Below are positions 2,333-62,200 of a DNA stretch of 64,000 bases, one piece after another. The DNA is taken from the NCBI RefSeq assembly GCF_032854445.1, contig NC_088296.1, forward strand, positions 4,613,246 through 4,677,245. The letters run 5' to 3'. Numbering within the stretch: position 1 is the first letter of the stretch; every line of letters starts with the position of its first letter. The notes under the pieces are model-generated. The model searched no databases, was not told the origin of the DNA, and saw nothing but the letters and a program-made list of their open reading frames with translations. A program made the translations under genes and the position numbers. The DNA comes from Liolophura sinensis (Eukaryota; Mollusca; Polyplacophora; Chitonida; Chitonidae).

Positions 2333-2863
2333 TGACATCTTACCCGCAGGCACTAACAGCTTTAGGGAGTGTAGTTTAACACACTGACATCTTACCCTCA
2401 GGCGCTAACAGCTGTAGGGAGTGTAGTTTGACACACTGACAACTTACCCTCGGGCGCTAACAGCTTTAGGGAGTGTAGTTTAACACACTGACATCTTACC
2501 CTCAGGCGCTAACAGCTGCAATGAGTGTAGTTTGACACACTGACATCTTACCCTCAGGCGCTAACAGCTGTAGGGAGTGTAGTTTGACACACTGACCACT
2601 TACCCTCGGGCGCTAACAGCTGTAGGGAGTGTAGTTTGACACACTGACAACTTATCCTCGGGCGCTAACAGCTGTGGGGAGTGTAGTTTGACACACTGAC
2701 AACTTACCCTCAGGCGCTAACAGCTGTAGGGAGTGTAGTTTGACACACTGACAACTTACCCTCAGGCGCTAACAGCTGTAGCGAGTGTAGTTTGACACAC
2801 TGACAACTTACCCTCAGGCGCTAACAGCTGTAGTGAGTGTAGTTTGACACACTGACAACTTAC
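2333..2863 (-). repeat. 52-bp array made from TXNL1 exon 5 end plus its splice donor
   Basis: About ten extra copies of a 52-bp unit lie immediately downstream (minus strand) of exon 5. On the minus strand each unit reads GTCAAACTACACTCCCTACA, then GCTGTTAGCGCCTGAGG|GTAAGT and about 8 more intron bases. That is the last 38 nt of the exon (encoding [13 protein letters not shown]) plus the first 14 nt of the intron. All copies keep a donor-like GTAAG or close variant. The period is not a multiple of 3. Confidence 0.9.
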
Positions 2864-2930
2864 CCTCAGGCGCTAACAGCTGTAGCGAGTGCAGTTTGAC
2901 AGCCTGGTTAAATGCCATGTGAATAATCAA
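2864..2930 (-). CDS. TXNL1: TXNL1-like exon 5, seed of the 52-bp array
   Basis: A 67-nt exon: acceptor TTTTTCAG, then 22 codons plus 1 nt reading [22 protein letters not shown], then donor G|GTAAGT. It enters in phase 0 from exon 4 (…ESDCDEQ). It aligns with the PITH segment written from memory as LLITVAFNQPVKLYSMKF in vertebrate TXNL1. Its last 38 nt and donor are the source of the adjoining array; the exon copy is the only one preceded by the AFNQ-coding part and a good acceptor. Confidence 0.88.
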
Positions 2931-8602: not shown

Positions 8603-9560
8603 TCTGCCGCTGGTATTGCCTTTCTGGATAAGATCGACGTAAATCCGAACACACTGGCTATTTTAAGTCGGTATTATTTATCAACATGTATTCAAAACCC
8701 GTATGTCACGCTTACCGGAAGTGACGTCGTCATAACTACTCAAACTGATGACGTCTTATCTGTAAACACAGGAAAGGTAGTGTCATCAATATATGTAACC
8801 ATTGAGTGGTCCAATACCTGGAGCCTTGTTACCTCCCCTCTCATAAAAAGCCATTGAAAAAAACTGAAAAAAAAAAGATATTGTGTTAATAGTATATCAT
8901 TTTTAATGACTTAATATGAAAGATCATTAAAACAAGGCGTTTAAACTACTGTAATTTGATTCTTTAAGCTATCAAAACAACCAGAATATAAATTTCTGTA
9001 AGGAAATGACAGGACGTCATGTTGATTAGTTTGGCTTCATATCTATTGGTTCATAGGACCTTCATGGCGTACATTTATAGCAAGTACCTTAACGGGAGTA
9101 AACATTAAAATAATTAGCCGACTGTAATTAAGCTTTCATTTGAACAAGTTTAGGATAGGTGATTGTGACAATTGAACTTAAGCATACACAAGTTCAGATG
9201 ATTGGCAAGATATGTGGTAAGTTTCATCAAAATCGGCATGCTAGTTTGAACAAAATCTGAATGCATGGAAAGCACTGTTACGAAAAGTTCTAAATTGGGG
9301 CAATTAATAAAATAATTACTCGATTGCTATTAAACTAAAACATGCACAAGTTCAGGTGATAGGCAAGGTGTGTGGTAAGATTCATAGAAATCGATGCTGT
9401 AGTTTGGGAGGAGATGCAAGGACAAAATCGTGTCTACAACCAGACAGACGGACAGACAGCGTCATTCTAGTTTACCCCCCCCCCCCTCCCTATTTCCCTC
9501 ACAAATTTCGTTTAGCTGGGTATATGAAAAACGTACCTGTATACCCTAAATCTTCAACCT
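8603..9560. other. Upstream region of TXNL1-like gene and dispersed repeat
   Basis: Positions 8603-8760 must hold the TXNL1-like promoter and 5'UTR, but no TATA box or initiator can be picked out. From about 9110 to 9480 there are two related segments sharing ACAAGTTCAG(A/G)TGAT, GGCAAG and GTGGTAAG, the second ending in CAGACAGACGGACAGACAGC and a C-run at 9475-9486. This looks like the tail of an interspersed repeat. Confidence 0.45.
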
Positions 9561-9725
9561 TTTATTTACTTACTTATTTTCATTGGTGTTTAATGCTGTA
9601 CTCAAGACTATTTCTCCTCTTCCCGGGAAGAGTCTACAACGCAAATAAAACCCACGATATTCACATCACCGCATTGGTGAGAGGCCATTGCGTTAGCAGG
9701 CCAACCACTCAGCCACACAGGGCCC
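9560..9725 (-). mobile_element. SINE family B, internally deleted
   Basis: Tail TATTTACTTACTTATTTTCA and ACTCAAGACTATTTCTC are joined almost directly to the head part GCATTGGTGAGAGGCC...GCCACACAGGGCC; most of the body is missing. Confidence 0.65.
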
Positions 9726-9837
9726 TGCGAATGAAATCAGTATCAAAATCGCGTATACCATGGTAGGTTTTGAGTTGTCGATAAACAAAATATGTATCTT
9801 AGTTGAGATTTGATCACAGCTGTTCATATGTGCAAGG

Positions 9838-15288: not shown

Positions 15289-15707
15289 CTATTTTTTTCT
15301 GCGAGATTCCACCAGAACCCGGATGTGGAGGTGAAACCGTCCTGGTGGGGAACAGAGATTTTCAAACAGAGATAAACCCAGAAGTCAAAGAGAAATTCAA
15401 GAGGCTTGGGGTCCGTTACAGCAATCATCTGCCTAGTTTACAGGACCAGGACAGGAAGGGCCTGACAAACTATTTGTCGTGGCAAGAGGTAGTGTGGGAA
15501 CCTCCATTAAGCCTTCCTTGAACAACATAACGTATTAGTGTTTCAAAGAACAGGCCATCATTTCATCAATGTCAAGGCTCCCACGGCATTTGTGTTTTTT
15601 TTTTTTTTTTTAAAAAACTCTTCATTTTGTCATTCTTGTGATGTTGCAAGGTTTAATGAATTTCTCTAATTTCTAATTAGTAACATTTGCGCAATATATC
15701 AACAGCG

Positions 15708-15815: not shown

Positions 15816-15832
15816 CCTTTAAGGTCGTACTT

Positions 15833-16108
<276 letters not shown>

Positions 16109-17280
16109 CACACAAATGAACCAGGGTCAAATTAAGCAATCAGTCAGTGATGGGGAAATGTGAACAAAGGCCCTACGCGATCTCTTGATCTTACACTGTA
16201 GCATTCAAAGCCAGAATGCGATACAGAACTTATATTTGTATTCAGCCTGAAATTATCCACAAACTATGTGTTTAAAACTCAAACTGGATGTCATTTGTGC
16301 CTAGAATATTGACTATCTTTACTGCAGCATTGCATATTTGACATGACTGATGTCTCTCTCTTACGTGCTACCAGTTTTTTTCATTTTACCCTGTATATGT
16401 TGTTTCTTGCATATTCTTGCGGTATATAGTGCAATACGTTGTTTTGAAAACGGTTTACAAGTGGTATATGAAAGTTGGAGCTGACTCTCAGATTTTGGTT
16501 ATTGTTTACAGGTGTTACAGGTAGACAACAGAGAGAGCGCGGAGCGGATTATGTCGGAGCAGGGTTACAGTTACAGGTTCCATACTGATGGGTCGCTGAC
16601 GAGTTGGCATAACCTCCAGCCACTAGACCACACCATACCACAGGTTGTCACCTCGTTCTGTGTGTCTGTATATAATATTAGCCAGCTTGTCTCATCGTTC
16701 TGTCTGTATATTAGGCACTAACCGTGCTGTCTTAGGGTACATGGTTACGAGGAAAGGAAAACATACCTGTTAAATTTTGATGATATTTTCCGGCGTTACA
16801 TTATTTGATAGTTAACTCTCAGTCACATGTAACCGGTGAAAACCTCGACAACTTGACTACTTGAACATGTCTTCTTGAAGCAGAGGTGCGTTTCTTTCAG
16901 TCTGCTCAAAATTTCCATGTTTCAAACCCACGTATTTTTTACTAGGCTTCTTCGTTACTTTTTTCCCAGGAGAAGAGCTCTGGTTTAATCAGCTCATCTG
17001 AACGTGAGCTACTTTCAGGCACACCCTTTTGGTCTTCGTGGATATCCCTGAGGATAAATTTCCTTCCAACGCTCACTACGGTGACGGGTCGTCCATTGAG
17101 CCGGAAGTCCTGGAGCACTTGCGAGAAGTCACCTGGAAACACGCTATCGGGGTCCAGTTGAAACAGGGAGAGCTGGTCGTCCTTGACAACATGCTGGGTC
17201 CAACATGGTCGCCTTGGTTACGTGGGAGAAAGACGGTTGCTGGTCACTCTTATATCCGCAATGGACGTCAGTGCATGAAG

Positions 17281-18300: not shown

Positions 18301-18309
18301 AGATTCGTC

Positions 18310-21300
18310 TGACGATGATGCCCCTATTGGCAACCTTTGCTAGGAAATGCCCTACGTCAGCAAATGACTACAGATTACAGTTTGGAAACTTTACTCCGCC
18401 TGGAACATACAGTTTCGTGGCAATGTAGAATTGCAGATTACGCATTTATCAAGGGAAGTAATTTTGCAACACCCTATGCATACCTAAATCTTTTCAACAC
18501 AGATGAGATGCTGACAGATGTAGCTGGCCAAACAAATCGGTTTCTCTGAGACTGAAATCTGTGACAACAACATCTCTAGAATGATCTTACTTGGAGTACG
18601 TCACAAGATATGGTCTTGTTAACATCAACATGGTCACTGATGAGTAGAAGAAGGATAAGTTGTGGAGAATTCGAAGCTGGTTCGATGCTTTACGACAAAA
18701 TTTCTCTCAATTCCTGCAGAGTAGAGCCACTCTGTCGATGAAATAATTGTTCCATTCAAAGGTAGATCTCATCTAAAAGTGTACATGCCAAAAAAAACCC
18801 CCACACACATACAAATGGGTATTCAAGATTGGGGTAGATTTGGCATAGGAGGCTTTTTACATGATTTCGACATATACCGCAACAGAAATTTCAGAACTTG
18901 GGGTAACTGGGGACCTACTAATGAAGCTGATTGATTCACTACAAGCTGGTCTGAATCACAAGCCTTTGTACATAATTACTTTCCATAAAAGTGAGGGAAC
19001 ACATCAACATTCTATGGCATATAGGATTATGAGCGTGGGCACTCCTTGCATAAAAGTTAGGAACAAATCAACATTCTATGGCATGAAGGATTATGAGCGT
19101 GGCACTTCTTGCATAAAAAGTGAGGAACACATCAACATTCTATGCATATAGGATTATGAGCGTGGGCACTTCTTGTATAAAAGTGAGGAACACATCAACA
19201 CTCTATGGCATGAAGGATTATGAGCGTGGGCACTTCTTGCATAAAAGTGAGGAACACCTCAACATTCTATGGCATGAAGGATTATGAGCGTGAGCACTTC
19301 TTGCATAAAAGTGAGGAACACATCAACACTCTATGGCATGAATGATTATGAGCGTGGGCACTCCTTGCATAAAAGTGAGGAACACCTCAACACTCTATGG
19401 CATATAGGATTATGAGCGTGGGCACTCCTTGTATAAAAGTGAGGAACACATCAACATTCTATGGCATATAGGATTATGAGCGTGGGCACTTCTTGTATAA
19501 AAGTGAGGAACACATCAACATTCTATGGCATCAAGGATTATGAGCGTGGGCACTCCTTGTATAAAAGTGAGGAACACATCAACATTCTTTGGCATGAAGG
19601 ATTATGAGCGTGGGGCACTTCTTGTATAAAAGTGAGGAACACATCAACACTCTATGGCATGAAGGATTATGAGCGTGGGCACTTCTTGCATAAAAGTGAG
19701 GAACACATCAACATTCTATGGCATATAGGATTATGAGCGTGGGCACTTCTTGCATAAAAGTGAGGAACACATCAACATTCTATGGCATGAAGGATTATGA
19801 GCGTGGGCACTTCTTGTATAAAAGTGAGGAACATATCAACATTCTTTGGCATGAAGGGTTTTGAGCGTGGGCACTCCTTGTATAAAAGTGAGGAACAAAT
19901 CAACATTCTTTGGCATGAAGGATTATGAGCGTGGGCACTCCTTGCATAAAAGTGAGGAACACATCAACATTCTATGGCATGAAGGATTATGAGCGTGGGC
20001 ACTCCTTGTATAAAAGTGAGGAACACATCAACATTCTATGGCATGAAGGATTATGAGCGTGGGCACTTCTTGCATAAAAGTGAGGAACACATCAACATTC
20101 TTTGGCATGAAGGATTATGAGCGTGGGCACTTCTTGCATAAAAGTGAGGAACACATCAACACTCTATGGCATGAAGGATTATGAGCGTGAGCACTTCTTG
20201 CATAAAAGTGAGGAACACATCAACATTCTTTGGCATGAAGGATTATGAGCGTGAGCACTTCTTGCATAAAAGTGAGGAACACATCAACATTCTATGGCAT
20301 GAAGGATTATGAGCGTGAGCACTTCTTGCATAAAAGTGAGGAACACATCAACATTCTATGGCATGAAGGATTATGAGCGTGGGCACTCCTTGCATAAAAG
20401 TGAGGAACAAATCAACATTCTATGGCATGAAGAATTATGAGCGTTGGCACTCCTTGCATAAAAGTGAGGAACACATCAACATTCTATGGCATGAAGGATT
20501 ATGAGGTGGGGACTTCTTGCATAAAAGTGAGGAACAAATCAACATTCTATGGCATGAAGAATTATGAGCGTTGGCACTCTTGCATAAAAGTGAGAAACAC
20601 ATCAACATTCTATGGCATGAAGGATTATGAGGTGGGGACTTCTTGCATAAAAGTGAGGAACACATCAACATTCTATGACATGAAGGATTATGAGCGTGGG
20701 CACTCCTTGTATAAAAGTGAGGAAGACATCAACATTCTAAGCATGAAAGAGTATGAGCGTGGGCGCTTCTTGCCTAAAAGTGAGGAACACATCAACATTC
20801 TTTGGCATGAAGGATTATGAGCGTGGGCACTTCTTGCATAAAAGTGAGGAACACATCAACATTCTATGGCATATAGGATTATGAGCGTGGGCACTTCTTG
20901 CATAAAAGTGAGGAACACATCAACATTCTATGGCATGAAGGATTATGAGGTGGGGGCTTCTTGCATAAAAGTGAGGAACACATCAACATTCTAAGCATGA
21001 AAGAGTATGAGCGTGGGCGCTTCTTGCCTAAAAGTGAGGAACACATCAACATTCTTTGGCATGAAGGATTATGAGCGTGGGCACTTCTTGCATAAAAGTG
21101 AGGAACACATCAACATTCTATGGCATATAGGATTATGAGCGTGGGCACTTCTTGCATAAAAGTGAGGAACACATCAACATTCTATGGCATATAGGATTAT
21201 GAGCGTGGGCACTTCTTGCATAAAAGTGAGGAACACATCAACATTCTATGGCATATAGGATTATGAGCGTGGGCACTTCTTGCATAAAAGTGAGGAACAC

Positions 21301-21580
21301 ATCAACATTCTATGGCATATAGGATTATGAGCGTGGGCACTTCTTGCATAAAAGTGAGGAACACACCAACATTCTATGGCATGAAGGATTATGAGGTGGG
21401 GACTTCTTGCATAAAAGTGAGGAACACATCAATGTTTTATGGCATGAAGGATTATGAGCGTGAGCACTTCTTGCATAAAAGTGAGGAACACATCAACATT
21501 CCAAAGGGTTATGGGCGTGGACACATCTTGCATGGAATTGCCTTAAGGCAGATGCCAAAATCTGACGTGGCTAATTTTTG
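18310..21580 (+). mobile_element. piggyBac-type (PGBD) transposase remnant split by a 64-bp array
   Basis: Fragments of a PGBD-like DDE transposase appear in order but in shifting frames: ATPYAYLNLFNTDEMLTDVA and GQTNRF (about 18466-18545), KDKLWRIRSWFDALRQNF (about 18650-18705), SVDEIIVPFKGRSHLKVYMP (about 18736-18795; the DE..VPFKGR motif is typical of the family), LHDFDIY and ELGVTGDLLMKL (about 18857-18930), then a HNYF motif where DNYFTS is expected (about 18958-18990). The downstream piece NCLKADAKI at about 21540-21565 fits the segment that follows in PGBD proteins. A tandem array occupies the gap. Stops and frameshifts make it inactive. No terminal inverted repeats or TTAA sites were identified. 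Confidence 0.78.
19003..21515. repeat. 64-bp minisatellite, about 39 copies, inside the piggyBac remnant
   Basis: Unit: ATAAAAGTGAGGAACACATC, AACATTCTATGGCATGAAGG, ATTATGAGCGTGGGCACTTC, TTGC. Variants include GCATATAGG for GCATGAAGG and GAGGTGGGG for GAGCGTGGG; a block containing CTAAGCATGAAAGAGTATGA occurs twice (about 20730-20770 and 20993-21030), so larger blocks were also duplicated. Read as SEEHINILWHEGL.AWALLA, the unit fits between the DNYFTS-like and NCLKADAKI-like segments of the transposase, so the unit itself is probably transposase coding sequence. Being 64 bp, each extra copy shifts the frame. Confidence 0.93.
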
Positions 21581-22325: not shown

Positions 22326-22327
22326 CA

Positions 22328-22374
22328 TAGCTGGCCACCAAAATCATGGCCGATGTCGTATATGTGAAACATTC
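22328..22374 (+). mobile_element. SINE family B tail fragment
   Basis: GCTGGCCACCAAAATCATGG and GTATATGTGAAACATTCT resemble the end of family B; the pyrimidine repeat starts directly after it. Confidence 0.45.
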
Positions 22375-23012
22375 TGTCTGCCTGCCTTCTGTCTGCTCCT
22401 TCTTTTCTGTGTGCCTGCCTTCTGCTTCATCCTTTTCTGTCTGCCTGAATTCTGTAGGTTCCTTTCCTGTCTGCTTGCCTTATACCAGTTCCTTGTCTGT
22501 CTAACTGCCTTCCGTGTGCCTTTCCTCTGTCTGTTCCCTCTCTGTCAGCTACTTTCTTTCTGTTCTCTCTGTCTGCCTTCTGTCTGCCTGTCTTCTGTCT
22601 GTCTGCCTGTCTTCTGTCTGCCTGTCTTCTGTCGGCTGCCTTCTGTCTGTTCCTCTTCTGTGTGCTTGTCTTCTGTCTATTCCTTTTATGTCTGTCTGCC
22701 TTCTGCCTGTCTTCTTAATTTTATTGTACGTCTTAATTTTATTGTCTCTTTTCTGTCTGCATATCTTCCACGTGTTCCTTCTTGTCTGCCTGTCTTCTGT
22801 CTGTTCTTGATCTGTCTGCGTGTTCCTGTTCAGTCTGGCTGCCTTCTTTATGTTCATTTTCTCTCTGGTTGTCTTCTGTCTGTTCCTTTTCTGACTGCCT
22901 ACCTGCTATCTGTTCCTTTTCTGTCTGCCTACTTTCTATCTGTTCCTTTTTCTGCCTGCCTACGTTGTGTCTGCCTGCCTTCTATCTTTTCCTTTTGTGT
23001 CTGCCCTTTCGG
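22375..23012. repeat. Degenerate CTGTCTGCCT/CTGTTCCTTTT repeat
   Basis: About 640 bp of imperfect short tandem repeats of CTGTCTGCCTTCTGT and TGTTCCTTTTCTGT. The 259-codon Cys/Leu/Ser/Pro ORF across it is low complexity and unsupported. Confidence 0.9.
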
Positions 23013-23044
23013 TTGCAGTGACATAAAGTTATAAGAGGAGCCAG

Positions 23045-23245
23045 AGGGATTATGAGCGTGGGCACTTCTTGCATAAAAGTTTGGAAAACACCAACATTCT
23101 AAGGCATAAAGGATTATGAGCGCGGGCACTTCTTGCATAAAAGTGAAGAAAACACCAACATTCTAAGGCATAAAGGATTATGATCGTGGGCACTCCTTGC
23201 ATGAAACTGCCTGAGAAGACAGATGCCAAAATCTGACATGTGCCA
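23045..23245 (+). mobile_element. Second piggyBac-type fragment with about 2.5 copies of the 64-bp unit
   Basis: GATTATGAGCGTGGGCACTT, CTTGCATAAAAGT and CACCAACATTCTAAGGCATA repeat two to three times, then GCATGAAACTGCCTGAGAAG and ACAGATGCCAAAATCTGACA follow, the same right flank as the large array (21530-21565). It is therefore a second copy of the same element, with a short array. Confidence 0.8.
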
Positions 23246-25205: not shown

Positions 25206-25207
25206 TA

Positions 25208-28150: not shown

Positions 28151-28607
28151 ATCCTAATGCCTGTATTTCAGCCATTGCTCATAACTTTGATTTGAATAGT
28201 GAATACTAGCATCTGTGTGTTGTTCATGGTGAATAAATTGAATCAGTTAGTCACTAAATGTTCATATGCCATATTACTCGGTTACAGCTATCGTTTTTCG
28301 GTGAGATTCCGCCAGAGCCCGGATGTAGAGGCGAATCCGTCCGGGTGACGAACAGAGATATTCAGAGGGAGATAAATCCAGAAGTCAACGATAAATTCAA
28401 GAGACTTGGGATTCGCTACAGCAATAATCTGCCTAGTTCACAGGACCAGCGCACAAAAGACCAGACAGTCTATTTGTCCTGGCAAGAGGTAGTTTGTGAA
28501 ATTCACTGATCCTTTTATCTAGGAACTACCGTGTGTGAACTAAAATTTCATCCATAACAGGTACTCATTTGCCCGGTTTTTACGTTGATCTTAGAAAGTT
28601 GTTCGAT

Positions 28608-35656: not shown

Positions 35657-38600
35657 TCAGTGCTTAGCTCCCCGTCTTTTGGAATGATCTGACTTCGGCA
35701 CATCCACCAGTACAAAACAATCACCAACTGTTCGTTTACAATACTGGAAAAACAAACTCTCTGCTTTCCCCAAAACATCGTCCAGGTCAATTTGCAGGCT
35801 GAAAACAAGGGAAAAAGTAAAAGAACTGCTTTAGCACAAATGTTCTGGCTGCAGACAGTACATGTCACAACACTTTGATGAGTCATGCATTGGGAAAGTC
35901 AATCTTTAACAGGCTGAAGACCTGTGACACACATTTGATAAATGTGGGAAAGTTGACATTTCACAGTGTGAAGAACTGTGACACAGATTTGATAAATCTG
36001 GGAAAGTTGACATTTAACAGTGTGAAGATCTGGGGTACAGATTTGATAAATCCAGCAAAGTTGACATTTAACAGTGTGAAGATCTGGGGTACAGATTTGA
36101 TAAATCCAGCAAAGTTGACATTTAACAGTGTGAAGATCTGGGGTACAGATGTGATAAATCCAGCAAAGTTGACATTTAATAGTGTGAAGAACTGGGGTAC
36201 AGATTTGATAAATCCAGGAAAGTTGACATGTAATAGTTTGAAGAACTGGGGTACAGATTTGATAAATCTGGGAAAGATGACATCTAAAAGTGTGAAGAGC
36301 TGTGACACAGATTTGATAAACCTGGGAAAGTTGACAATTAATAGTGTGAAGAACTGGGGTACAGATTTGATAAATCCAGCAAAGTTGACCTGTAATAGTT
36401 TGAAGAACTGTGGTACAGATTTGATAAATCCAGCAAAGTTGACATTTAACAGTGTGAAGATCTGGGGTACAGATGTGATAAATCCAGCAAAGTTGACATT
36501 TAACAGTGTGAAGATCTGGGGTACAGATGTGATAAATCCAGCAAAGTTGACAATTTAATAGTGTGAAGAACTGTGGTACAGGTTTGATAAATCTGGGAAA
36601 GTTGACATTTAATAGTGTGAAGAACTGGGGTACAGATTTGATAAATCCAGCAAAGGTTGACCTGTAATAGTTTGAAGAACTGTGGTACAGATTTGATAAA
36701 TCCAGCAAAGTTGACATTTAACAGTGTGAAGATCTGGGGTACAGATGTGATAAATCCAGCAAAGTTGACATTTAACAGTGTGAAGATCTGGGGTACAGAT
36801 GTGATAAATCCAGCAAAAATTAGCATTTAATAGTGTGAAGAACTGTCACACAAATTTGATACATCTGTGAAAATTAGCATTTAATAGTGTGAAGAGCTGT
36901 GACACAGATTTGATAAATCCAGGGAAGTTGACATTTCACAGTGTGAAGAACTGTGACACAGATTTGATAAATCTGGGAAAGTTGACATTTAATAGTGTGA
37001 AGAGCTGTGACACTGATTTGATAAATCTGCGAAAATTAGCATTTAATAGTATGAAGGACTGTGACACAAATTTGATACATCTGCGAAAATTAGCATTTAA
37101 TAGTGTGAAGAGCTGTGACACAGATTTGATAAATCAGGAAAAGTTACCATTCAACAGAGTGAAGAACTGTGACACAGGGCAGTAATCAAAATTACTCATT
37201 ACTTCATAGATAACTTTCACTGATTTTGATCTTACCCATTGATACACTGAAAGACCATGGCAGAGTCTGTACACTTGAGGAGGCCCTCCCGACACTGAAT
37301 GAGCAGCGCCACGCACATGAAGGACTCAAATGTGTAGTCGTAGTGGAGTGTCAGATTGTCTACTGTCCTCAAAACGCCATCTGGGCAAACAGAGGAAATA
37401 ACTTCATTAATGGTAAACGGCCTAAAAATTTGAACAAAACAGTGCATTTTGCAGGCAGTAAATGTCATAATGTATGACTTTTGGTGATGAAAATTTAATT
37501 TTGGTATCATTCTACCTTTTAAACAAACCTCAAAATGCCTTTCTAAGAACAACAAAACTCTCAGATTCAGACAAAAATTGTACAATTCTACGTCATTTAT
37601 CATATCCATTTATTCCAATAGTCATTATTTTTTTTTTATTTATTTGATTTGGTGTTTAACAACTTACAAAAGTACTGTAAAATATCTCAATTGACCTTTT
37701 ATGTCCTATAAACACACCAATAATAACCATGCCCACCAATCAAAATGCCAGCATCGACAATTATCAAGATTTCTAATTGGCTGATGTAGTATTTTGACTG
37801 GGAGTTGCAGTCTGTCAGTCGGATGATATCAGTCAGGCTCTCTTTCTTTATTTGTGTCTCAAAGTTGGGAGACCTGGGTATCAAACCCTGGTTCCAGTAG
37901 TAACAAAGAGATTAAGAACGGTGCTTGCGGCTGCCTTGCTTGGCCCCCAGCAGTGAGAGGTTAGAGCAAGGAAACGGGACTGGTTGGCCCAGTGCCAGTA
38001 TAATGTGACTAGATGAGGTGTCAGGTATGGTGTCTTAGGCATGATATTTCAGTGGCAGCAGCAATATGGCATTATTCTCCCTGTCACAAGAAGACACAGT
38101 ATATTTACATGCCACTAATATATGTCCTCATATGACTAAAAGATTGTTAAGTACAATGTATTTATTTATTTGATTGGTGTTTTATGTCATACTCAAGAAT
38201 ATTTTACTTATACGATAGAGGCCAGCACTATAGTTGGAGAGAGACCTTCTCATGTATGGCCGGGGAGGAAGCTAGCATGAGCTGGACTTGAACTCACATT
38301 GACTGCCTTGGTGAGAGGCTCATGGGCGATTGCGCTGCGCTGGCATGCTAACCACTTCGGCATACATACATCCATACTTGAAACCTCTAACATCAGAGTG
38401 GCTCACCCTGGTTTTCAAACTCTTTCATCTGTTCTCGTCTGCGGGCATTGGCTGCCTCCAGGGATGATAGCTCCAAATGATGGCTGCTGAGAATCTCAAA
38501 ACATCGCAACGAGTCGTCAAAATTGAATTCCCTCTTGAAACCCAAGAGCAACCACCTAGTAAATATATAGAGAAAGAATAAGTATTTGGTGGCCCTAGCT

Positions 38601-41600
38601 TCATTATTACCATCTGTGAACACATGAAGAGAGAGTATTCGTAGCTAGTCACGTTTTAATTCCCCTTTCATGAAACTCAGGGCCTAATCTAGCCTCCAAA
38701 GGGCAAGGTGTGGAACCAGCGGTGAAGGGCACCTCATTGTTGTATATTTTCATTCTTATAAATTTTCAAGGGGCTTTGGACCCTACGAGTGAGCTCCTCT
38801 CCAACTGTACACCGCAACACCCACCCTTGTTAAGGCCTTTTTAATACTGTAATTATTTTACAAGTAGAATAAGTAGTGGTAATAGAACACACAAGCATGC
38901 ACACTCACATTCATACACAAATATTCATGACTTTTTCATGAAGTTTTCTAAAGATTTTCAAAATTCATGAATTATTCAAGACATATCAAAATTTATTCAC
39001 GACTAATCAGAGAGATTTAGCATACTGGTGTGTCCAGAGAGACGGCTGGTGTGCTGGTGTAAATTTACACCAAATCTGTGACACCTAAAGTTTGATACGT
39101 TAAGTTTGCCAAGTGAAAGTAGAACACAATCTGACATGTTTGTACTAACCTGTGGCAGAAGAGGAGATCTCCCAGGTCATGTGACTCCAGGTGACTAATC
39201 AGAGAATTATCAAATTGCTCCAGTAGTTTCCTTACAAGATCTGGCAAAGGAAAACAGGCAACAAAATAAAAACATTCAACTGGTCATCCAAATAAGGAAA
39301 CACAATGATAACAGATATACAAATGTTATTTATATTTATATTTGTATTTATTTATTTATTTATTTGATTGGTGTTTTATGCCGTACTCAAGAATATTTCA
39401 CTTATACAACGGCGGCCAGCATTATGGTGGGGAGGAAACCGGCAGACCCTGGGGAAACCACGACCATCTGCAGGTTTTAACCTTTGGGGTCAGTTCTCAG
39501 AATACAAGTTGTACAATAAAATGTAGGAAATGATACTGCCAAAAATCACAGGATGGAGGGTTGTATGGTTTATATGGCTTTTTTAGCATCCATTTTGGAG
39601 GAAAACAGTAGCAGCCAATGCTAGCAGACCACCAATATTGCTGATCATGTTCCATTCATAGGATGATCAAATTACAGTCATGAAAACTGTTCACATTAAC
39701 TTTTACTTATCTATTTATTTGATTGGTGTTTCACTTGTACAAGAGCAACCAGCGTTATGGAGGCAGGAAATTGAGCAGAGCACCCATGACCATCCACAGG
39801 TTGCTGGCAGACGTTCTTTACATTAACTTTAATAAGCGGCAAATGCTACTAGACCACCATCATGGCTGATCACATTCTGGTGGGTTGATGATACAAAGTT
39901 TGTACATTATTAATAAGTTAACATAATACCAGGAAATCTGTAACCATGGCAACAAGAAATGAAGCACTAACCTATTTTCTGCACCATGCCTTCCTCATCA
40001 AAGTCATTCTTCACACTGATCATGTATTTTGTAAAGCACCAATAAGCTTCTACCTGCAAGACAAATTAAACCACCACAAAATTTTCAAATCGTCATAAAT
40101 GCACAGTTAAAATGGCTGCACAATGAACAACTACTTTAAGGCACTGAGAAGATATTGGTCTTTTTCTATCTCTGCCTCATGCTTGCTTGGTTATACTGGT
40201 CCACAAAGGGAAGTGAGGTCACCCTTAGTAAGTTCTTTGTTTGGCATAACCTGACATCATCAGAGAAAACAAAAGTGGGAGTGGGTGGGGTTGGGTGCTG
40301 TCAATAAGGAATGTCTACAGCTATATTCTAATCTTCTACAAGGAATTGATAATCATGAAATAATCTCTTATAATGTCTCTTACAATGTCTCTTTTGTTTA
40401 AGGCCATGCCCTAAATGACCAGAAATGTCATCCATGACTAAACTGTCCATTTTCCTGATTCTGAGAGTTGTGCTGATTTTAGAAAAATGTTTTGAGGCCT
40501 GCTTGGAACATGAGGATGATATTCTCTTGGAAATTTCAGCATCAAAAATAATATTTTTTGACATTTATTAGTCTCTAAAAAGCCCACTTTTGGGGTGAAA
40601 TTTTAGGTCATTTTAGAGTAGCTTTAAATTATTACGTTCAATTATTAAGTGACATTGTTTTAATTATTGATTTGATAATGTTCAACATGTTAAAAATGTA
40701 TAAGAAATTAGGAAATGAATACACTGTGCAGTAAAGTCTTGCCTCAGAGTTGAAAACGACTAAGAATCGTGCCATGATGTCGTTCATGCCCTGGGCATAG
40801 CCGATGTCTGTCTGGAAGGCCGCAAATGTGATAAGGGCTTCTCTCAGCTGTGTCAGATGTGGGTTATTTTTACCACTGTAACACAAACACTCAACCAGGT
40901 TATGCATTATTGTCACCATCATTAACTTTATAATGCGTAATGTAACCTAGAAAATACTCAATCTGTTACACTTTTATAATATTGTCACCATCTTTAACTA
41001 AATGAATATACTTGCAACCAAGAAAATGTTCAAAAATATCATTCTTAACTACATGTAAATGCCAAAAACACTCCTGAGAAAATAATCAACCAGTTACACC
41101 TTGCTATCAAAATGTACCAAAAAAAAGTTCAACAAATGGGTAGTTTCACCATGTTAATTCACTCTGTTTGTTCTGGTATTTCCTTTAAAGGCATTACCCT
41201 GTGAAAACTGACAGGTGGTACAGTACTGACTTTGCGTGAAAACCAAAGAGATGCTATTTTATCATGATGATTTTCACTTTCATATTTTATGATGATGCAC
41301 AAACTACATGCCACCTGGAAATTCTACACAAATTCAAACATTTTTTTTTATTATTGTGTCAACACAAACATTTATACAGGAAATACTCATAGTTCCTGTC
41401 TCTCCTGTGCACATTTGTGTCCTGTATCTGGATGTCTGTTTTGTTCTTGGTCTGTAATTACAGGAAATACTCATAGTTCCTGTCTCTCCTGTGCACATTT
41501 GTGTCCTGTATCTGGATGTCTGTTTTCTTCTTGATCTGTACTTACAGGAAATACTCACAGCTCCTGTCTGTCCTGTGCACATTTGTGTCCTCTATCTGGA

Positions 41601-44600
41601 TGTCTGTTTTGTTCTTGGTCTGTACTTACAGGAAATTCTCACAGACCCTGTCTGTCATGTGTACATTTGTGTCCTCTATCTGGATGTCTGTCTTGTTCTT
41701 GGTCTGTACTTACAGGAAATACTCATAGCCCCTGTCTGTCCTGTGCACATTTGTGTCCTCTATCTGGATGTCTGTTTTGTTCTTGGTCTATACTAACAGG
41801 AAATACTCATAGTCCCTGTCTGTCCTGTGCACATTTGTGTCCTGTATCTGGATGTCTGTTTTGTTCTTGGTCCGTACTTACAAGAAATACTCATAGTCCC
41901 TGTCTGTCCTGTGCACATTTGTGTCCTCTGTCTGGATGTCTGTCTTGTTCTTGGTCTGTACTTACAGGAAATACTCATAGTCCCTGTCTGTCCTGTGCAC
42001 ATTTGTGTCCTCTATCTGGATGTCAGTTTTGTTCTTGGGCTGTACTTACAGGAAATTCTCACAGACCCTGTCTGTCCTGTGCACATCTTTGTCCATCATC
42101 TGAATGTCTGTTTTCTTCTTGATCTGTACTTACAGGAAATACTCATAGTCTCTGTCTGTCCTGTGCACATTTGTGTCCTCTATCTGGATGTCTGTTTTGT
42201 TCTTGGTCTATACTAACAGGAAATACTCATAGCCCCTGTCTGTCCTGTGCACATTTGTGTCCTCTATCTGGATGTCTGTTTTGTTCTTGGTCTGTACTTA
42301 CAAGAAATACTCATAGACCCTGTCTGTCATGTGTACATTTGTGTCCCCTATCTGAATGTCTGCTTTTGTCCTTAGTCGGTACTAGGAAATACTCATAGTC
42401 CCTGTCTGTCCTGGGAATGTCTTTGTCCTCTATCTGGAGGTCTGTGTTTGTCCTTACAGTCTGTACTCACAGGAAATACTCACAGTCCCTGTCTGTTCTG
42501 GGCATGTCTCTGTCCACTATCTGGAGGGCTGTGTTTGTCCTTACAGTCTGTACTCACAGGAAATACCCACAGTCCCTGTCTGTCCTGGACATGTCTGTGT
42601 TTCTCCTTACAGTCTGTTCTCACAGGAAATACTCACAGTCCCTCTCTGTCCTTGGCATGTCTTTGTCCACTATCTGAAGGGCTGTGTTTGTCCTTACAGT
42701 CTGTACTCACAGGAAATACTCACAGTCCCTGTCTGTCCTGGGAATGTCTTTGTCCACTATCTGGAGGGCTGTGTTTGTCCTTACAGTCTGTACTCACAGG
42801 AAATACTCACAGTCTCTCTCTGTCCTTGCATGTCTTTGCCCTCTACCTCGATATCTGGTTTTGTTCTTAGCCTGTACTTACAGGAAATACTCATAGTCCC
42901 TGTCTGTCCTGGGCACATCTTTGTCAATGATACGAATGTCTGTCCTCAGCTGGTCCATGTCTAACTGCTGCCTGTTTACATACACCTGTACAGGTAGGGA
43001 AGAACAGCTGCAGGTTATCATATAAAATTATTCCATCATTTACTTATGTATTTGTTATACAAATTGTTACATAGTATCTCACTGTTGCGTATTACATACC
43101 ACACTCAAGAACTGTTCACTTTATACAGTGGCAGAAATTTCATGGGAGGAAGAAACCAGAGTGCCCGGTGCAAACCACCAAGTTCCGGCAAGTTACGTAC
43201 AAACGTTCCTACGAGACTTGCGGATAAGCACACCATAGTGGGAGCGACAACTGGTGTTCAGTGATCAATTTATTACAGATCTACAAATTCAAAAGCCTGA
43301 GCTCATACATGTTCCTATTAACAAGCCAGTGTCTCTAACAAACTAGACCAAGCACAACTCCCAAATTGAAGGTTAATATAAAACATACACCCTGAATGAC
43401 ATGAAATTCCGCCCGCTAAAAGTGCATTTCAGAGGCTAAAAAAAAAAAAAAAAAATATATATTATTTTGGTGCTGAAATAATTTTCCAGTAGAGTATTGT
43501 TGTATGCAAACCTCAAGACACCTTTCTCAAATCAACAGAATTTTCAGAATCAGAAAAAAAAAATGGACAAGTTAGTCATGGATGAAATTTATGGTCATTT
43601 AGGGTTTGTGATACACGTTAATTATACATGTATATATCAATGTCAAATAGACAGCACAGTTGGTAGAGCGCTCGCTTTGGGAAGGGTAGATCCAGGGTCA
43701 ATCCTGGGTCGGGTCACACCTAAGACTTTAAAAGAGGAAGTTGTGGCTTCCTCGCTTGGCGTTCAGCATTAAGGGGATAGAGCAGCGACTGGTTGACCCG
43801 TATTAGTATAATGGCTCGGGCATGGCGGCTTACTTGCCTACGGTAAGGTGTCTCGGTGAAGCAGCACTAGATAAAAGAGCAGTGGACATCCGTCCTGGAA
43901 CAAGGAGACACATTACATATACTCTAAGGATTCCCGCGTCATCATATGACTGAAAAATTTGTTAAGTACGACGTTAAACCCCAAGCACTCACTCATTCAC
44001 TCAAAGTCAAATAATACTATTTCAAGACATAATGTTATACTGATTCCGAACATCAGGGTACAAAGATTTTCCAAGATACGGTGTTATGTTCAACAGTGTA
44101 TCATCAGTTCTGGTGTTTTGTTGCCACACAGACCATGAACTTCTCCTCAGATATGTCTGATCCTTTGCTATAGTTGCATAAGGCCATTGCTACATCAAGG
44201 TGTAAAAACAGTATATCACATACAAATGTGAATATTGGAACGCATTTGCAGACTGAAATTAATGTCCTAAAATACTACTTCAGGTTATGAAGTTACTCTT
44301 CTTATGTCATACATCATTCTACCTTCTAAACAAACCTGAAAGCACCTTTTTATTGATCAACAGAGCTGTCAGAATCAGGCAAAATGTATAACTTTAATTG
44401 TCAAGAGTGACAGTTTAGGTCAGTCCTCTGAAAACAGCATGCAACAAGCTTTCTTTGAGCAAGGATTTGCAAACACATGGTGACGGAGGCATAAATATAT
44501 AACCACACAGTGTTATATAACATCAGACTGTAATCTGTGAAGCTCAACCATGACGGCAAAAATATCAGAATTATTTGATGCTGTTCAACAATTAGCTGTA

Positions 44601-53249: not shown

Positions 53250-56200
53250 ATGCGGCTTTTATTTGGCGGAGGCATAATTATCAGCCTTTTGTTTTGGGGT
53301 AAGTAATGAAAGAAAGTATTTGTAAGCGTACGACTAGGGATCCCTGCCAGTGGTGCATTTGTAATTCTTATCGCGACGACAAGTGGGTCGTTGTTTACAT
53401 TTGTTCGTTTTGATCATGAACACGGTCAAAACAACAACGAGACCAACATGCATTACTGGTTACTAAAGTCGCGCGGGATCATGTCCCTTCAATACTCACC
53501 AGCCATGCCGGTGTTTCACAACCACAAAGGACATTATTTCAATTAAATGAAACGTTGAGGCCTATTTTCAACATTTTCTGGGTCGAGTCACACCTAAGAT
53601 TTTAAAAGAGGAAGTTGTAACTTCCTCTCTTGGCGTTCAGCACGAAGAGGATAGGGCAACGACTGGTTGACCCGTATCAGTATAATGGCACAGGCAGGGC
53701 GGCTTACTTGCCTTCGGTAAGGTGTCTCAGTGAAGCAGCACTAAATCAAAGAGCGGTGGAAATCCGTCCCGCAACAAGGAGGCACATCACATGCACTCTA
53801 AGAATTCCTTCGTCGTCATATGACCAAAAACTTGTTCAGTACGACGTTAAATCCCAAGCACTCACTCTATAATTCAACATTTTCTATATATATCTGCACC
53901 ATTGTTGACCATTGTATTGAAAAATCCAGTCAGTCCACTTTGCAGTGGGCCTTTAAATCCACTCCAAAAGCCTGTTGTGTATTGAGCTGAAGTTTAGCAT
54001 ACATGTGCATGTCAAACCCATCACATGAGAGTGATGTTCCATCAACTGAATTGAGTTAGGCTACATGCCTCTAGTATTTAGACTGATGTGACCAAAATTC
54101 CTCTGGTTGTGGACCCGCGGACTGCAAATCTTAATTTACGACACTGCGGCCACAACCGTTTGTCATATCTGGTGTCTTCGGCATGATACTTCAGTGGTGG
54201 CAGCACTTTAGTGGTATTGACTCGCCCTGCCACAGGAAGACACAATATATGTGCACACACCTAATGTCTCCTCTTCAGCATATGACTTTAAAAGTAGGAC
54301 GTATAATCCCAGGCACACATACACACGATGTAGTCAGAAATTGCACCTGTCATAACTGTTGTGAAAACATGAAGAGAAGAAACAGGCCATCAGGGTAAAT
54401 GTGCCTGACATACCATTGCAACGGCTTTGTGAAACAGGGCCCTGGTGTTCATATACCTTAATATAATAAGAGCATGAATGTAGCCACAGTGTACAAAGGC
54501 AAAAGTACATATAGGAAAGACAAAGTAACTGGACGTGAAGAGTTATGAAGTTATGTTTATGTTTCAAGTGCCCAATGCAAGTGGACACAACTCCTCCAGT
54601 TGTGACCAATGGCATCATGTGGCCGCCAACTCCACCCAGTCGGTGCGGGGCCTGAATATGACCTGTGTGCGGAACAGAACATGCACGGGCATCACCTGTA
54701 CAGGCATCTACCATTACAAGGTGAGACATTCAGTACAAAGGTTCATTTCACTTGAACAGTATGTGGGGAGGTCAGGCAGCAACCTGTTGATGGTCAGGGG
54801 TTACTCTTGGTCATGTCCGGTTTCCTCCCACCATATTGCTGGCCTTTGTTGTGTAATTGAAATATTCTTGAGTATGGCATAAAACACCAGTGAAATAAAT
54901 AAGTAAATTTCACTTGTACATGTAGGGAGCTGACAGTGGCCAAGTGGTTAAAGGTGCTTGTATAACAGCTAGAACTAATGAGCCTTTGACAGCAGATTTA
55001 TAGATTGCCTGGCCCTTTGCTCATAGCATGTGGAGTCTTAGTGACAATAAGCTGCTGATGACACAGTGTAATGTTTGTTGGTTACTCGTCTCTCACCAAT
55101 ATGTGGTGTGCTTATCTGCACGTCGTGTGCGGGAAAGTTTGTCAGTAAATTGTCCAAGGTCTGTGGTTTTTTACACCAGGCATTCCAGTTTTCTCTACCT
55201 ATAAAACTTTTTAACTGTGATTGTATAAGTTAAAAATTCTTGAGTATGGCTACAATGAAATAAACACTAAATTTACTTTAATATTTGTCGCACTTAGTGA
55301 AGTTGAACACCTGACAGGTGTCACGTTTATAGTGAAGATAAAGTTTATGGGTGGATGAAACCAAGCCCAGGCGTGCTGTGGGATCAGGTTCTGCGGATGT
55401 TTTGTAGGGTCAGATTTTGGAAGTGTTACCATGGAACCCTTTTGTGGGGTCAAGTTGTGGGATAGTGTGTTCCTGCACAGCAGTCATGCTATGGGATGAA
55501 GTTGTGGGGACATTTTGTAGGGTCATATTTTGGGACATACCATGGAAGTTGTTGTGCATGGCACCATGGAAACTTACGGATTATCTCCAAGTTTGATGTT
55601 TCCCACACAGTTTTTCCAGAAATATTGGCGTTTTGGACAGGACTTTTAAGTATTTACAGTTTTTATGAATTTACAACTTATTTCTCTGACTGCTGTCCTA
55701 AATCTGTTTTATGTCATAATGAATTCAAGATATCTCTGCTGTGGTACATGAAAATGCTTTAAATTTACGAGGGAAGTTAATGTTTTGTGTTGTTCTGCTC
55801 ACTGTAGGCATTAATTTTACCCCTTTTCTCTCTACTTTCAATTACCAGTAACATGCCACCAGGCATAAGTATCATTTTCTGGTACAGCCTTTGTTAATGC
55901 TCAGGCCTTTGTTCATGCTACAACCTTTGTTCATGCTACAACATTTGTTCATGCTACAACCTTTGTTCATTTTGCTGCAATCTGTGTTCATTTTGCTACA
56001 ACCTTTGTTCATGCTGCAACCTTTGTTCATGCTACAATCTTTGTTCTTTCTGTATCATATTGTTTGTGTGTTTCAGATCCCAGCTGTAGCTGCCAGGAAT
56101 GTGGACTTCTGCTTTGGCTTCCGCCTGAACCCCTGTGACTCGCCAGTCACTGCGGACATTTATCTACAGGTCCCTGAGAAGCCTGTGTCCTATGTAGTCC

Positions 56201-59200
56201 GCACCCATAATAGTCAAAACATCCAAGTCCCCAGTAAGTCTACACCCATAATAGTCAAAACATCCAAGTCCTCAGTAAGTCTGCACCCATAATAGTCAAA
56301 ACATCCAAGTCCTCAGTAAGTCTGCACCCACAGTAATCAAACCATCCAAGTCCTCAGTAAGTCTAAACCCACAGTAATCAAACCATCCAAGTCCTCAGTA
56401 AGTCTGCACCCACAGTAATCAAACCATCCAAGTCCTCAGTAAGTCTGCACCCACAGCAATCAAACCATCCCAGTCCTCAGTAAGTCTGCACCCACAAGTA
56501 ATCAAACCATCCAAGTCCTCAGTAAGTCTGCACCCACAGTAATCAAATCAGCCAAGTCCTCAGTAAGTCTGCGCCCACAGTAATCAAATCAGCCAAGTCC
56601 TCAGTAAGTCTGCACCCACAAGTAATCAAACCATCCCAATCCTCAGTACGTCTGCACCCACAGTAATCAAACCATCCCAGTCCTCAGTAAGTCTGCACCC
56701 ACAGTAATCAAACCATCTAAGTCCTCAGTAAGTCTGCACCCACAGCAATCAAACCATCCAAGTCCTCAGTAAGTCTGCACCCACAGTAATCAACCCATCC
56801 AAGTCCTCAGTAAGTCTGCACCCACAGTAATCAAACCATCCAAGACCTCAGTAAGTCTGCACCCACAGTAATCAAATCATCCAAGTCCTCAGTAAGTCTG
56901 CGCCCACGGTAATCAAACCATCCCAGTCCTCAGTAAGTCTGCGCCCACAAGTAATCAAACCATCCCAGTCCTCAGTAAGTCTGCGCCCACAAGTAGTCAA
57001 ACCATCCCAGTCCTCAGTAAGTCTGCGCCCACGGTAATCAAACCATTTAAGTCCTCAGTAAGTCTACGCCCACAAGTAATCAAACCATCCAAGTCCTCAA
57101 TAAGTCTGCACCCACAAGAAATCAAACCATCCAAGTCCTCAGTAAGTCTGCACCCACAAGTAATCAAACCATCCAAGTCCTCAGTAAGTCTGCACCCACA
57201 AGTAATCAAACCATCCAAGTCCTCAGTAAGTCTGCACCCACGGTAATCAAACCATTTAAGTCCTCAGTAAGTCTGCGCCCACAAGTAGTCAAACCATCCA
57301 AGTCCTCAGTAAGTCTGCACCCACAGTAATCAAATCATCCAAGTCCTCAGTAAGTCTGCGCCCACAAGTAGTCAAACCATCCAAGTCCTCAGTAAGTCTG
57401 CGCCCACAGCAATCAAACCATCCCAGTCCTCAGTAAGTCTGCACCCACAGCAATCAAACCATCCCAATCCTCAGTAAGTCTGCACCCACAGTAATCAAAC
57501 CATCCAAGACATCAGTAAGTCTGCACCCACAGTAATCAAATCATCCAAGTCCTCAGTAAGTCTGCGCCCACAAGTAGTCAAACCATCCAAGTCCTCAGTA
57601 AGTCTGCACCCACAGCAATCAAACCATCTAAGTCCTCAGTAAGTCTAAACCCACAGTAATCAAACCATCCAAGTCCTCAGTAAGTCTGCACCCACAAGTA
57701 ATCAAACCATCCAAGTCCTCAGTAAGTCTGCACCCACAAGTAATCAAATCATCCAAGTCCTCAGTAAGTCTGCGCCCACAAGTAGTCAAATCATCCAAGT
57801 CCTCAGTAAGTCTGCACCCACAGCAATCAAACCATCCAAGTCCTCAGTAAGTCTGCACCCACAGTAATCAAACCATCCAAGTCCTCAGTAAGTCTGCGAC
57901 CACAGTAATCAAATCATCCAAGTCCTCAGTAAGTCTGCACCCACAGCAATCAAACCATCTAAGTCCTCAGTAAGTCTAAACCCACAGTAATCAAACCATC
58001 CAAGTCCTCAGTAAGTCTGCACCCATAAGTAATCAAACCATCCAAGTCCTCAGTAAGTCTGCACCCACAGTAATCAAATCATCCAAGTCCTCAGTAAGTC
58101 TGCGCCCACAAGTAGTCAAATCATCCAAGTCCTCAGTAAGTCTGCACCCACAGCAATCAAACCATCTAAGTCCTCAGTAAGTGTGCACCCACAGTAGTCA
58201 AACCATCCAAGTCCTCAGTAAGTCTGCACCCACAGTAATCAAATCATGCAAGTCCTCAGTAAGTCTGCACCCACAGTAATCAAACCATCCAAGTCCTCAG
58301 TAAGTCTGCACCCACAGTAATCTAAGTCCTCAGTAAGTCTAAACCCACAGTAGTCAAACCATCCAAGTCCTCAGTAAGTCTGCACCCACAGTAATCAAAC
58401 CATCCAAGTCCTCAGTAAGTCTGCACCCACGGTAATCAAACCATCCCAGTCCTCAGTAAGTCTGCACCCACAGTAATCAAACCATCCAAGTCCTCAGTAA
58501 GTCTGCACCCACAAGTGATCAAACCATCCAAGTCCTCAGTAAGTCTGCACCCACAGCAATCAAACCATCTAAGTCCTCAGTAAGTCTAAACCCACAGTAG
58601 TCAAACCATCCAAGTCCTCAGTAAGTCTGCACCCACAGTAATCAAATCATACAAGTCCTCAGTAAGTCTGCACCCACAGTAATCAAACCATCCAATTCCT
58701 CAGTAAGCCTGCACCCACAGTAATCAAACCATCTAAGTCCTCAGTAAGTCTGCACCCACAAGTAATCAAACCATCCAAGTCCTCAGTAAGTCTGCACCCA
58801 CAGTAATCAAACCATCCAAGTCCTCAGTAAGTCTGCACCCACAGTAATCAAACCATCCCAGTCCTCAGTAAGTCTGCACCCACAGCAATCAAACCATCTA
58901 AGTCCTCAGTAAGTCTAAACCCACAGTAATCAAACCATCCAAGTCCTCAGTAAGTCTGCACCCACAAGTAATCAAACCATCTAAGTCCTCAGTAAGACTA
59001 AACCCACAAGTAATCAAACCATCCAAGTCCTCAGTAAGTCTGCACCCACAAGTAATCAAATCATCGAAGTCCTCAGTAAGTCTGCGCCCACAAGTAGTCA
59101 AATCATCCAAGCCCTCAGTAAGTCTTCACCCACAGCAATCAAACCATCCAAGTCCTCAGTAAGTCTAAACCCACAGTAATCAAACCATCCAAGTCCTCAG

Positions 59201-62200
59201 TAAGTCTGCACCCACAGTAATCAAACCATCCAAGTCCTCAGTAAGTCTGCACCCACAAGTAATCAAACCATCCAAATCCTCAGTAAGTCTGCACCCACAA
59301 GTTATCAAATCATCCAAGTCCTCAGTAAGTCTGCGCCCACAAGTAGTCAAATCATCCAAGTCCTCAGTAAGTCTGCACCCACAACAATCAAACCATCCAA
59401 GTCCTCAGTAAGTCTAAACCCACAGTAATCAAACCATCCAAGTCCTCAGTAAGTCTGCGCCCACAAGTAGTCAAATCATCCAAGTCCTCAGTAAGTCTGC
59501 ACCCACAGTAATCAAACCATCCCAGTCTTCAGTAAGTCTGCACCCACGGTAATCAAACCATTTAAGTCCTCAGTAAGTCTGCACCCACAGTAATCAAATC
59601 ATCCAAGTCCTCAGTAAGTCTGCGCCCACAAGTAGTCAAACCATCCAAGTCCTCAGTAAGTCTGCGCCCACAAGTAGTCAAACCATCCAAGTCCTCAGTA
59701 AGTCTGCACCCACAGTAATCAAACCATCTAAGTCCTCAGTAAGTCTAAACCCACAGTAATCAAACCATCCAAGTCCTCAGTAAGTCTGCACCCACAAGTA
59801 ATCAAACCATCCAAGTCCTCAGTAAGTCTGCACCCACAGTAATCAAATCATCCAAGTCCTCAGTAAGTCTGCGCTCACAAGTAGTCAAATCATCCAAGTC
59901 CTCAGTAATTCTGCACCCACAGTAATCAAATCATCCAAGTCCTCAGTAAGTCTGCACCCACAGTAATCAAACCATCCAAGTCCTCAGTAAGTCTGCACCC
60001 ACGGTAATCAAACCATCCCAGTCCTCAGTAAGTCTGCACCCACAGTAATCAAACCATCCAAGTCCTCAGTAAGTCTTCACCCACAGCAATCAAACCATCT
60101 AAGTCCTCAGTAAGTCTGCACCTACAGTAGTCAAACCATCCAAGTCCTCAGTAAGTCTGCACCCACAGTAATCAAATCATCCAAGTCCTCAGTAAGTCTG
60201 CGCCCACAGTAATCAAACCATCCAAGTCCTCAGTAAGTCTGCACCCACAGCAATCAAACCATCTAAGTCCTCAGTAACTCTGCACCCACAAGTAATCAAA
60301 TCATACAAGTCCTCAGTAAGTCTGCACCCACAGTAATCAAACCATCCCAGTCCTCAGTAAGTCTGCACCCACAGCAATCAAACCATCTAAGTCCTCAGTA
60401 AGTCTAAACCCACAGTAATCAAACCATCCAAGTCCTCAGTAAGTCTGCACCCACAGCAATCAAACCATCTAAGTCCTCAGTAAGTCTGCACCCACAGCAA
60501 TCAAACCATCTAAGTCCTCAGTAAGTCTAAACCCACAGTAGTCAAACCATCCAAGTCCTCAGTAAGTCTGCACCCACAGTAATCAAATCATCCAAGTCCT
60601 CAGTAAGTCTGCACCCACAGTAATCAAACCATCCAAGTCCTCAGTAAGTCTGCACCCACAGCAATCAAACCATCTAAGTCCTCAGTAAGTCTGCACCCAC
60701 AAGTAATCAAACCATCCAAGCCCTCAGTAAGTCTGCACCCACAGTAATCAAACCATCCAAGTCCTCAGTAAGTCTGCACCCACAGCAATCAAACCATCCC
60801 AGTCCTCAGTAAGTCTGCACCCACAGCAATCAAACCATCTAAGTCCTCAGTAAGACTAAACCCACAGTAATCAAACCATCCAAGTCCTCAGTAAGTCTGC
60901 ACCCACAAGTAATCAAACCATCCAAGTCCTCAGTAAGTCTGCACCCACAAGTAATCAAATCATCCAAGTCCTCAGTAAGTCTGCGCCCACAAGTAGTCAA
61001 ATCATCCAAGCCCTCAGTAAGTCTTCACCCACAGCAATCAAACCATCCAAGTCCTCAGTAAGTCTAAACCCACAGTAATCAAACCATCCAAGTCCTCAGT
61101 AAGTCTGCACCCACAGTAATCAAACCATCCAAGTCCTCAGTAAGTCTGCACCCACAAGTAATCAAACCATCCAAGTCCTCAGTAAGTCTGCGCCCACAGT
61201 AGTCAAACCATGCAAGTCAACATGCCCATTGTATGTCTGCAGGACCCTAGTAATAAGTCTGCATCTATCATAATCACAGTTTGCAGGTCCATGGTACATA
61301 TGCACTCTACACAGTCAACAAGATACATCTACTGTATGTAGTATTGTGATGTGTATACCCAACAGTTAAAATATGTGCCGTAGTTCTTCAACTTTTTCAA
61401 CTGCTTCTGCAACCAATATTTTGAACATTTTGATAGAACTTAATAGAGAAATAATTTGCACAGTTTTAGCATCATTTACCATCATTTTCATAATAATTAT
61501 ACACATAAATATACATGGTGACCGGTTTCCTCCCACCATGATGCTGGCCGCTCTTATTGAAATAAAATATTCATTTACATGTGTAGTGGGCCATGAAACA
61601 CTAATAAAGTAGATAAGTAGATAAACTATCCAAATAAGTGATGTTTTACTAGTGAGGGAATTAGTATCTAAATATACCAGAACTGAACAGTGAATTTGCT
61701 GTATGGCTTTGAGTCTTCAACCCTCTGTTCGTGTTTTTTTTTTTTTTTTCGGACAGATCTGTCGTATCGGTTGATAACTGACTTTGTCACAGCTGATGTG
61801 TTCCTGGATGTGACCATGGGAACACCCGCCCACAACCGTGTAGAATTTGGGGTGAGTATACTGTATATACATGGCTGACAGGGTCATTATTTTTGGCTCG
61901 AGGGTATGGCTATTCGAGATCATAGTCACCCAGGCCTTTGCCATTGCACTCGATCGGTCTGGAATATACTAATATAGTTACGTGTACAGAAAAAATTGTG
62001 ATGACCTAATGGTAATGATGGCGGGGAGGAGGATGTGGTCAGTCAAGTCCGGTACTCGTACAGGAAATTCCCTCGATTCTTTGGGCTTCCTTGGTGGTTG
62101 CAAGGAAAGATATGATACAGCCCCCGTAAAAACCCAAGCTAGTAGTTAAAACCAGGCTGAAGATTAACATGCTAATAACAGTATTGGAGACAGTTTGTAT

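Follow-up and report, generated by a model that had tools for sequence, protein, structure and literature searches.

Minisatellites that straddle 5' splice sites in three genes of a 64-kb chiton window and recur outside it

Results

The stretch of Liolophura DNA analysed here (the window; C2:4613246-4677245, 64 kb, of a genome of 609 Mb in 632 contigs) holds a TXNL1-like gene and a TBC-domain gene on the minus strand, an unnamed secreted-protein gene on the plus strand and a TauD-like exon; judged from these genes and their introns, the host would be an animal. In each of the three genes a minisatellite, built of head-to-tail similar units of tens of bases, overlaps the authentic exon-intron boundary and repeats the 5' splice site (donor) as a motif; read from the sequence, donor-like sites number 10 in the 11 TXNL1-like copies, about 17 in the TBC array and 119 in the secreted-protein array. 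An earlier note on this DNA had described these arrays from the letters alone, and we find them to be real: Tandem Repeats Finder (TRF; arrays merged, period 15 to 150) and donor spacing, from which donor positions were taken, recover all three, and the exons are authenticated by domains, by frame or by both. Comparison of the TRF units also confirms that they are unrelated among the three genes. The copy numbers given previously hold for the TBC gene (about 18) and the secreted-protein gene (about 121 here, about 120 in the note), whereas the TXNL1-like array has 11 copies and not 10. Coordinates are collected in Table 1.

The TXNL1-like array starts 38 nt inside its exon by the TRF edge (exon end 2864) and has an intact GT in 10 of 11 copies. 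Thioredoxin and PITH domains are recognised in this gene, and the PITH domain spans the junction formed by the first donor (Pfam). In the TBC gene, where the RabGAP-TBC domain is continuous over the first-donor junction (Pfam), the 84-bp unit has 87- and 66-bp variants and the copies fall into two subtypes; the array starts 44 nt inside the exon by the TRF edge, and copy alignment extends the likeness to about 62 nt. The exon that follows in this gene (40743-40875) is succeeded by the bases GCAAGA, a GC donor in place of GT. The secreted-protein array starts 38 nt inside exon 3 by the TRF edge (exon end 56233) and comprises 121 full units of 55 distinct types; a Pfam search with the protein of this gene returned no family at E 0.001.

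Table 1. Exons and donor-straddling minisatellites of the three genes, in positions of the window
Feature	Position	Strand	Basis
TXNL1-like exon ending in array (PITH domain)	2864..2930	-	Donor spacing, Pfam
52-bp minisatellite, 11 copies; unit of last 38 nt of exon + 14 nt of intron incl. GTAAGT	2333..2901	-	TRF
Following TXNL1-like exon	1388..1481	-	In-frame junction with donor 1 only, 10 donors tested
TBC-gene exon ending in array	42882..42985	-	Exon prediction, Pfam
84/87-bp minisatellite, ~18 copies; unit of exon end (44-62 nt) + intron start	41375..42925	-	TRF, copy alignment
Following TBC-gene exon, ends in GC donor	40743..40875	-	In-frame junction with donor 1 only, 16 donors tested
Exon 3 of secreted-protein gene, ends in array	56077..56233	+	Exon prediction
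41/42-bp minisatellite, ~121 units, 119 donor-like sites	56196..61218	+	TRF, consensus alignment
Following exon of secreted-protein gene	61757..61851	+	In-frame junction with donor 1 only, 117 donors tested

Which of the many donors belongs to the gene? In all three genes it is the one closest to the exon, because this donor alone among those tested leaves the frame open, and in two of the genes domains span the junction. Together with two loci outside the window (L025 and L001, described below), donor 1 alone gives an open frame at five of five loci, and every later donor tested keeps intron sequence containing a stop. The introns that carry the arrays measure 1.4, 2.0 and 5.5 kb (TXNL1-like, TBC and secreted-protein gene, respectively), which is compatible with exon definition, in which the splice sites nearest each other across the exon are preferred (PMC9225289).

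That the arrays extend only downstream of the exon, as stated in the earlier note, is confirmed as a layout, but a directional mechanism is not needed to explain it, since only the first of the tested donors yields an open frame. An array over a donor would be symmetrical in itself and would count as intronic since the first donor is used; as the later donors tested lead to a stop, selection would purge arrays that grew toward the exon, and arrays on acceptors would, by like reasoning, be harmful. The downstream-only layout may therefore be what selection would leave. Across 43 arrays (the 17 of the window and 26 from random loci), the donor test returned the three window cases and the acceptor test a single weak candidate, which lies antisense to a known gene, with an exon finder that is itself weak (10 of 19 known exons predicted exactly; the L001 exon was missed by it and spotted by eye).

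Two other arrays of the window lie just past exon ends on the minus strand with the donor outside the array, one (1-1298) starting 90 nt past exon end 1388 and the other (35915-37171) 65 nt past exon end 37236. From these two, introns in the window may carry arrays more often toward their 5' side than at their 3' side.

Outside the window, regular triplets of the donor word AGGTAAGT at a spacing of 28 to 58 nt number 626 genome-wide, and among the matches listed we counted by eye 20 distinct arrays on contig C1 up to 93.4 Mb. Nine AGGTAAGT arrays came with loci, and six were judged (L001, L003, L007, L012, L016 and L025); L002, L009 and L010, the last with a weak exon-finder candidate, were excluded as cut on the upstream side or too short. 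The donor-straddling build recurs at L025 (C1:14.889 Mb), where an array of 44-bp units starts inside an RPC1-like exon, the protein of which matches RNA polymerase III subunit RPC1 with E 3e-8. It probably recurs at L001, where the array begins within what is probably an exon, in a gene of unknown identity (best Pfam match E 0.2). The frame is open with donor 1 only at both, that is with one of 11 donors at L025 and one of six at L001, and in both the first donor is weaker than the later ones (CAG/GTAAAT against CAG/GTAAGT at L025, CAT/GTAAGT against TAG/GTAAGT at L001). At L012 the array starts close to where a probable exon ends, and the donor is not clearly in the unit; this exon has a PKD-like look, but no Pfam match was found for it. 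No coding exon was discerned by eye at L003, L007 or L016.

Minisatellites are abundant in this genome. By merged TRF calls, the window has 17 arrays over 16.9 of 64 kb (26% covered), and 20 random 10-kb loci have 26 arrays over 18.4 of 200 kb (9%); the random loci all lie on C1, so this density is a C1 figure, and 12 of the 26 arrays come from two of them (L031 and L032). The donor-straddling arrays are probably ordinary minisatellites that were caught on donors and are tolerated there. Local tandem duplication would form arrays in a genome that produces very many, and where the left edge of an array happened to fall some tens of bases or less before an exon's end, both that end and the 5' splice site would become part of the unit. 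In long introns the donor closest to the exon's own acceptor would be chosen, so that the copies remain intronic and the arrays survive, whereas exon-side copies or acceptor arrays would be harmful to the protein and be eliminated. No function is assigned to the donor copies, some of which may leak into non-productive transcripts. This explanation is supported by the high load, by parity at the level of word hits (below), by the open frame with donor 1 only at five of five loci, by unremarkable donor columns in two arrays and by intron lengths compatible with exon definition. We also count in its favour that the share of judged AGGTAAGT arrays on a coding exon end (two of six) is close to that of solitary strong-donor words judged to be exon ends (about four of 15), both assessed by eye on small numbers.

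An unlikely alternative is a mutational process that favours 5' splice sites, such as slippage or repair associated with transcription, with U1 binding or with R-loops. Preference for donors was measured as regular triplets per word occurrence (hits) and as distinct arrays on C1. By hits, which are weighted heavily by long arrays, AGGTAAGT reaches 2.36% (626/26,576) against 2.13% (3,914/183,420; range 1.05-3.00%) for seven pooled controls, namely three other words of the same dinucleotides and four reversed words, while CAGGTAAGT reaches 2.80% (275/9,807) against 3.30% (160/4,849) for its reversed form. The donor word thus shows no hit-level excess over control words, which argues against the mechanism acting at 5' splice sites that the earlier note had envisaged.

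Several other results weigh against ordinary minisatellites as the whole explanation and, but for the conservation in the 41-bp array, in favour of such a process. At the array level on C1, 20 donor arrays compare with 18 for three controls, 1.77-fold when scaled (two-sided p 0.09), and CAGGTAAGT has 10 arrays, 2.3-fold (p 0.05), with expectations that assume each word to be evenly spread over contigs. These arrays were counted by eye among the matches listed, which extend to 93.4 Mb of C1 for AGGTAAGT, to 52 Mb for AGTAAGGT and over all of C1 for the other two controls; the array at C1:51.32 Mb, where both words are present on opposite strands, was counted for AGGTAAGT and for AGTAAGGT. Among the 43 arrays, 11 units have a donor score of at least 7 against 5.0 expected (P 0.005), and at one threshold the donor matrix comes first against 60 column-permuted matrices (2.5-fold, reached by 0/60). 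The donor nonamer is among the best-kept in the 41-bp array. Finally, the window holds three donor-straddling arrays, where 0.3 to 0.5 would be expected given its 17 arrays, between 19 and 30 donors and a catch zone of 60 nt (Poisson P between 0.004 and 0.013, or 0.02 to 0.07 when acceptors are included), a P that is not clean, as the window was chosen for its striking look. To these three cases L025 and L001 may be added.

The unit-level result, however, varies with the threshold: three units have a donor score of 9 against 1.3 expected (P 0.16), and under a stricter threshold 20/60 permuted matrices reach the donor matrix (1.83-fold), as do 6/60 on mean percentile. If the genome is assumed to have 200,000 donors, chance would place arrays across about 1,560 of them. 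The AGGTAAGT arrays of C1 crowd one end: we counted eight of the 20 within the first 5 Mb. The window, too, is near the start of its contig, at a distance of 4.6 Mb; in human, polymorphism of variable number tandem repeats (VNTRs) is enriched toward chromosome ends (PMC7608644). Enrichment at 5' splice sites, on which the earlier note had let its proposal stand or fall, is absent by hits, 1.8 to 2.3-fold by C1 arrays (p 0.05-0.09) and threshold-dependent by units. We see no strong preference for donors; a bias of about two-fold is possible, in figures uncontrolled for gene density and distance to chromosome ends, which also counts against a process specific to 5' splice sites.

Are the donor copies kept by selection, as the earlier note had also suggested? 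Donor columns are no better conserved than the rest in the TXNL1-like array (0.951 vs 0.969) or in the TBC array (0.949 vs 0.949). Alignment to the consensus of the 41-bp array shows an intact donor nonamer in 93% of units, against values down to 46% for other nonamers. The variation there lies mainly in eight columns common to unit subtypes, and eight of 41 nonamer-length windows miss these columns by position alone (our own count). The difference in this third array may thus be due to chance, and we do not claim selection on its donor nonamer.

Two other sources of the arrays were rejected: a shared mobile element, as the three units are unrelated, and spliced RNA, as exon and intron bases are joined in the unit as they are in the gene. 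The array edges are too diverged for short direct repeats to be read as seeds, and we make no claim of a seed. Assemblies often get the copy number of long arrays wrong, and on this ground the arrays could be taken for artefacts; the units differ, both in the many types of the 41-bp array (55 among 121 full units) and in the two TBC subtypes, and comparable arrays are found at another locus, which makes an artefact most improbable.

Elsewhere in the window, a family of 64-bp units occurs at two places about 1.5 kb apart (18984-21501 and 23047-23206), with a TTCTGTCTGCC-rich stretch between them (22372-22961). The TauD-like exon (17019-17242) has a Pfam E of 0.00038, below the family cut-off. 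Near it lie two similar predicted exons on the plus strand (15289-15488 and 28288-28488; EIPPEPGC...YLSWQE), which point to duplication of a dioxygenase-like gene, perhaps with degeneration of the second copy.

Discussion

The donor-straddling arrays described here are real and recurrent, and they are further examples of a design known in single human genes. The earlier note knew of no described class that fits, a view that does not hold for single genes: the human ABCA7 VNTR contains the donor of exon 18 (PMC5954066), and two more cases are IFI6 and CBS. As described, the VNTR in ABCA7 intron 18 has a 25-bp unit, 23.7 units in the reference and a length that associates with skipping of exon 19 and with reduced expression (PMC5954066). 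It resembles the chiton arrays in being an exon-flanking minisatellite that includes the donor and lies on the intron side only, and in that retention of one unit leads to a frameshift and premature stop; in contrast to them, its unit is described as beginning at the donor GT, without exon bases, and its splicing effect and disease risk are known (PMC5954066).

This likeness bears on whether the chiton copies might be retained as decoy or poison donors, lowering or adjusting expression in that splicing at a later copy leads to a premature stop and mRNA decay. The stop that follows from each later donor tested is consistent with such a role, as is the ABCA7 case, where one-unit retention gives a premature stop and longer arrays accompany lower expression (PMC5954066). 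However, the ABCA7 authors report seeing no effect of length on the retained-unit transcript (PMC5954066). Moreover, most intronic extensions reach a stop regardless, and the donor copies are without sign of selection in two of three arrays, the third being undecided. We consider the chance of such a role to be small.

The other known systems are similar in part. In IFI6 (6-16, G1P3), downstream repeat units act as alternative donors (PMC4526556, citing Turri et al. 1995); there the later donors are described as yielding further mRNA species (PMC4526556), whereas the later Liolophura donors tested all give a stop. CBS has a 31-bp VNTR over the exon 13/intron 13 boundary, the length of which is tied to lower enzyme activity; its array is described as non-coding (PMC5188458), and we liken it by its position on the boundary and not by a donor in each unit. 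Intron gain in potato likewise involved a tandem copy of a segment containing a splice border, but in that account a single duplication at an intron-exon (3') border gave a new intron (PMC4974935), in contrast to the chiton, where the copies are many and at a 5' border and no new intron is seen. In the literature searched we met no paper that treats donor-straddling arrays as a genome-wide class, which is not proof of absence.

What would these arrays mean for the genes that carry them? A bolder proposal is that a process tied to transcription or splicing amplifies donor ends about twice as often as other sequence, leaving many genes with tens of competing donors of which the first is still used. 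We regard this as doubtful; if true, it would supply a natural series of multi-donor experiments. On either account the loci are a natural test of how the spliceosome chooses when 10 to 120 nearly identical donors are on offer, and L025 and L001 stand out in this respect, as their authentic donor is weaker than its many copies. Our data suggest that donor-straddling repeats, which the literature searched describes in individual human genes, can be common in animal genomes rich in repeats and could there lead gene annotation astray.
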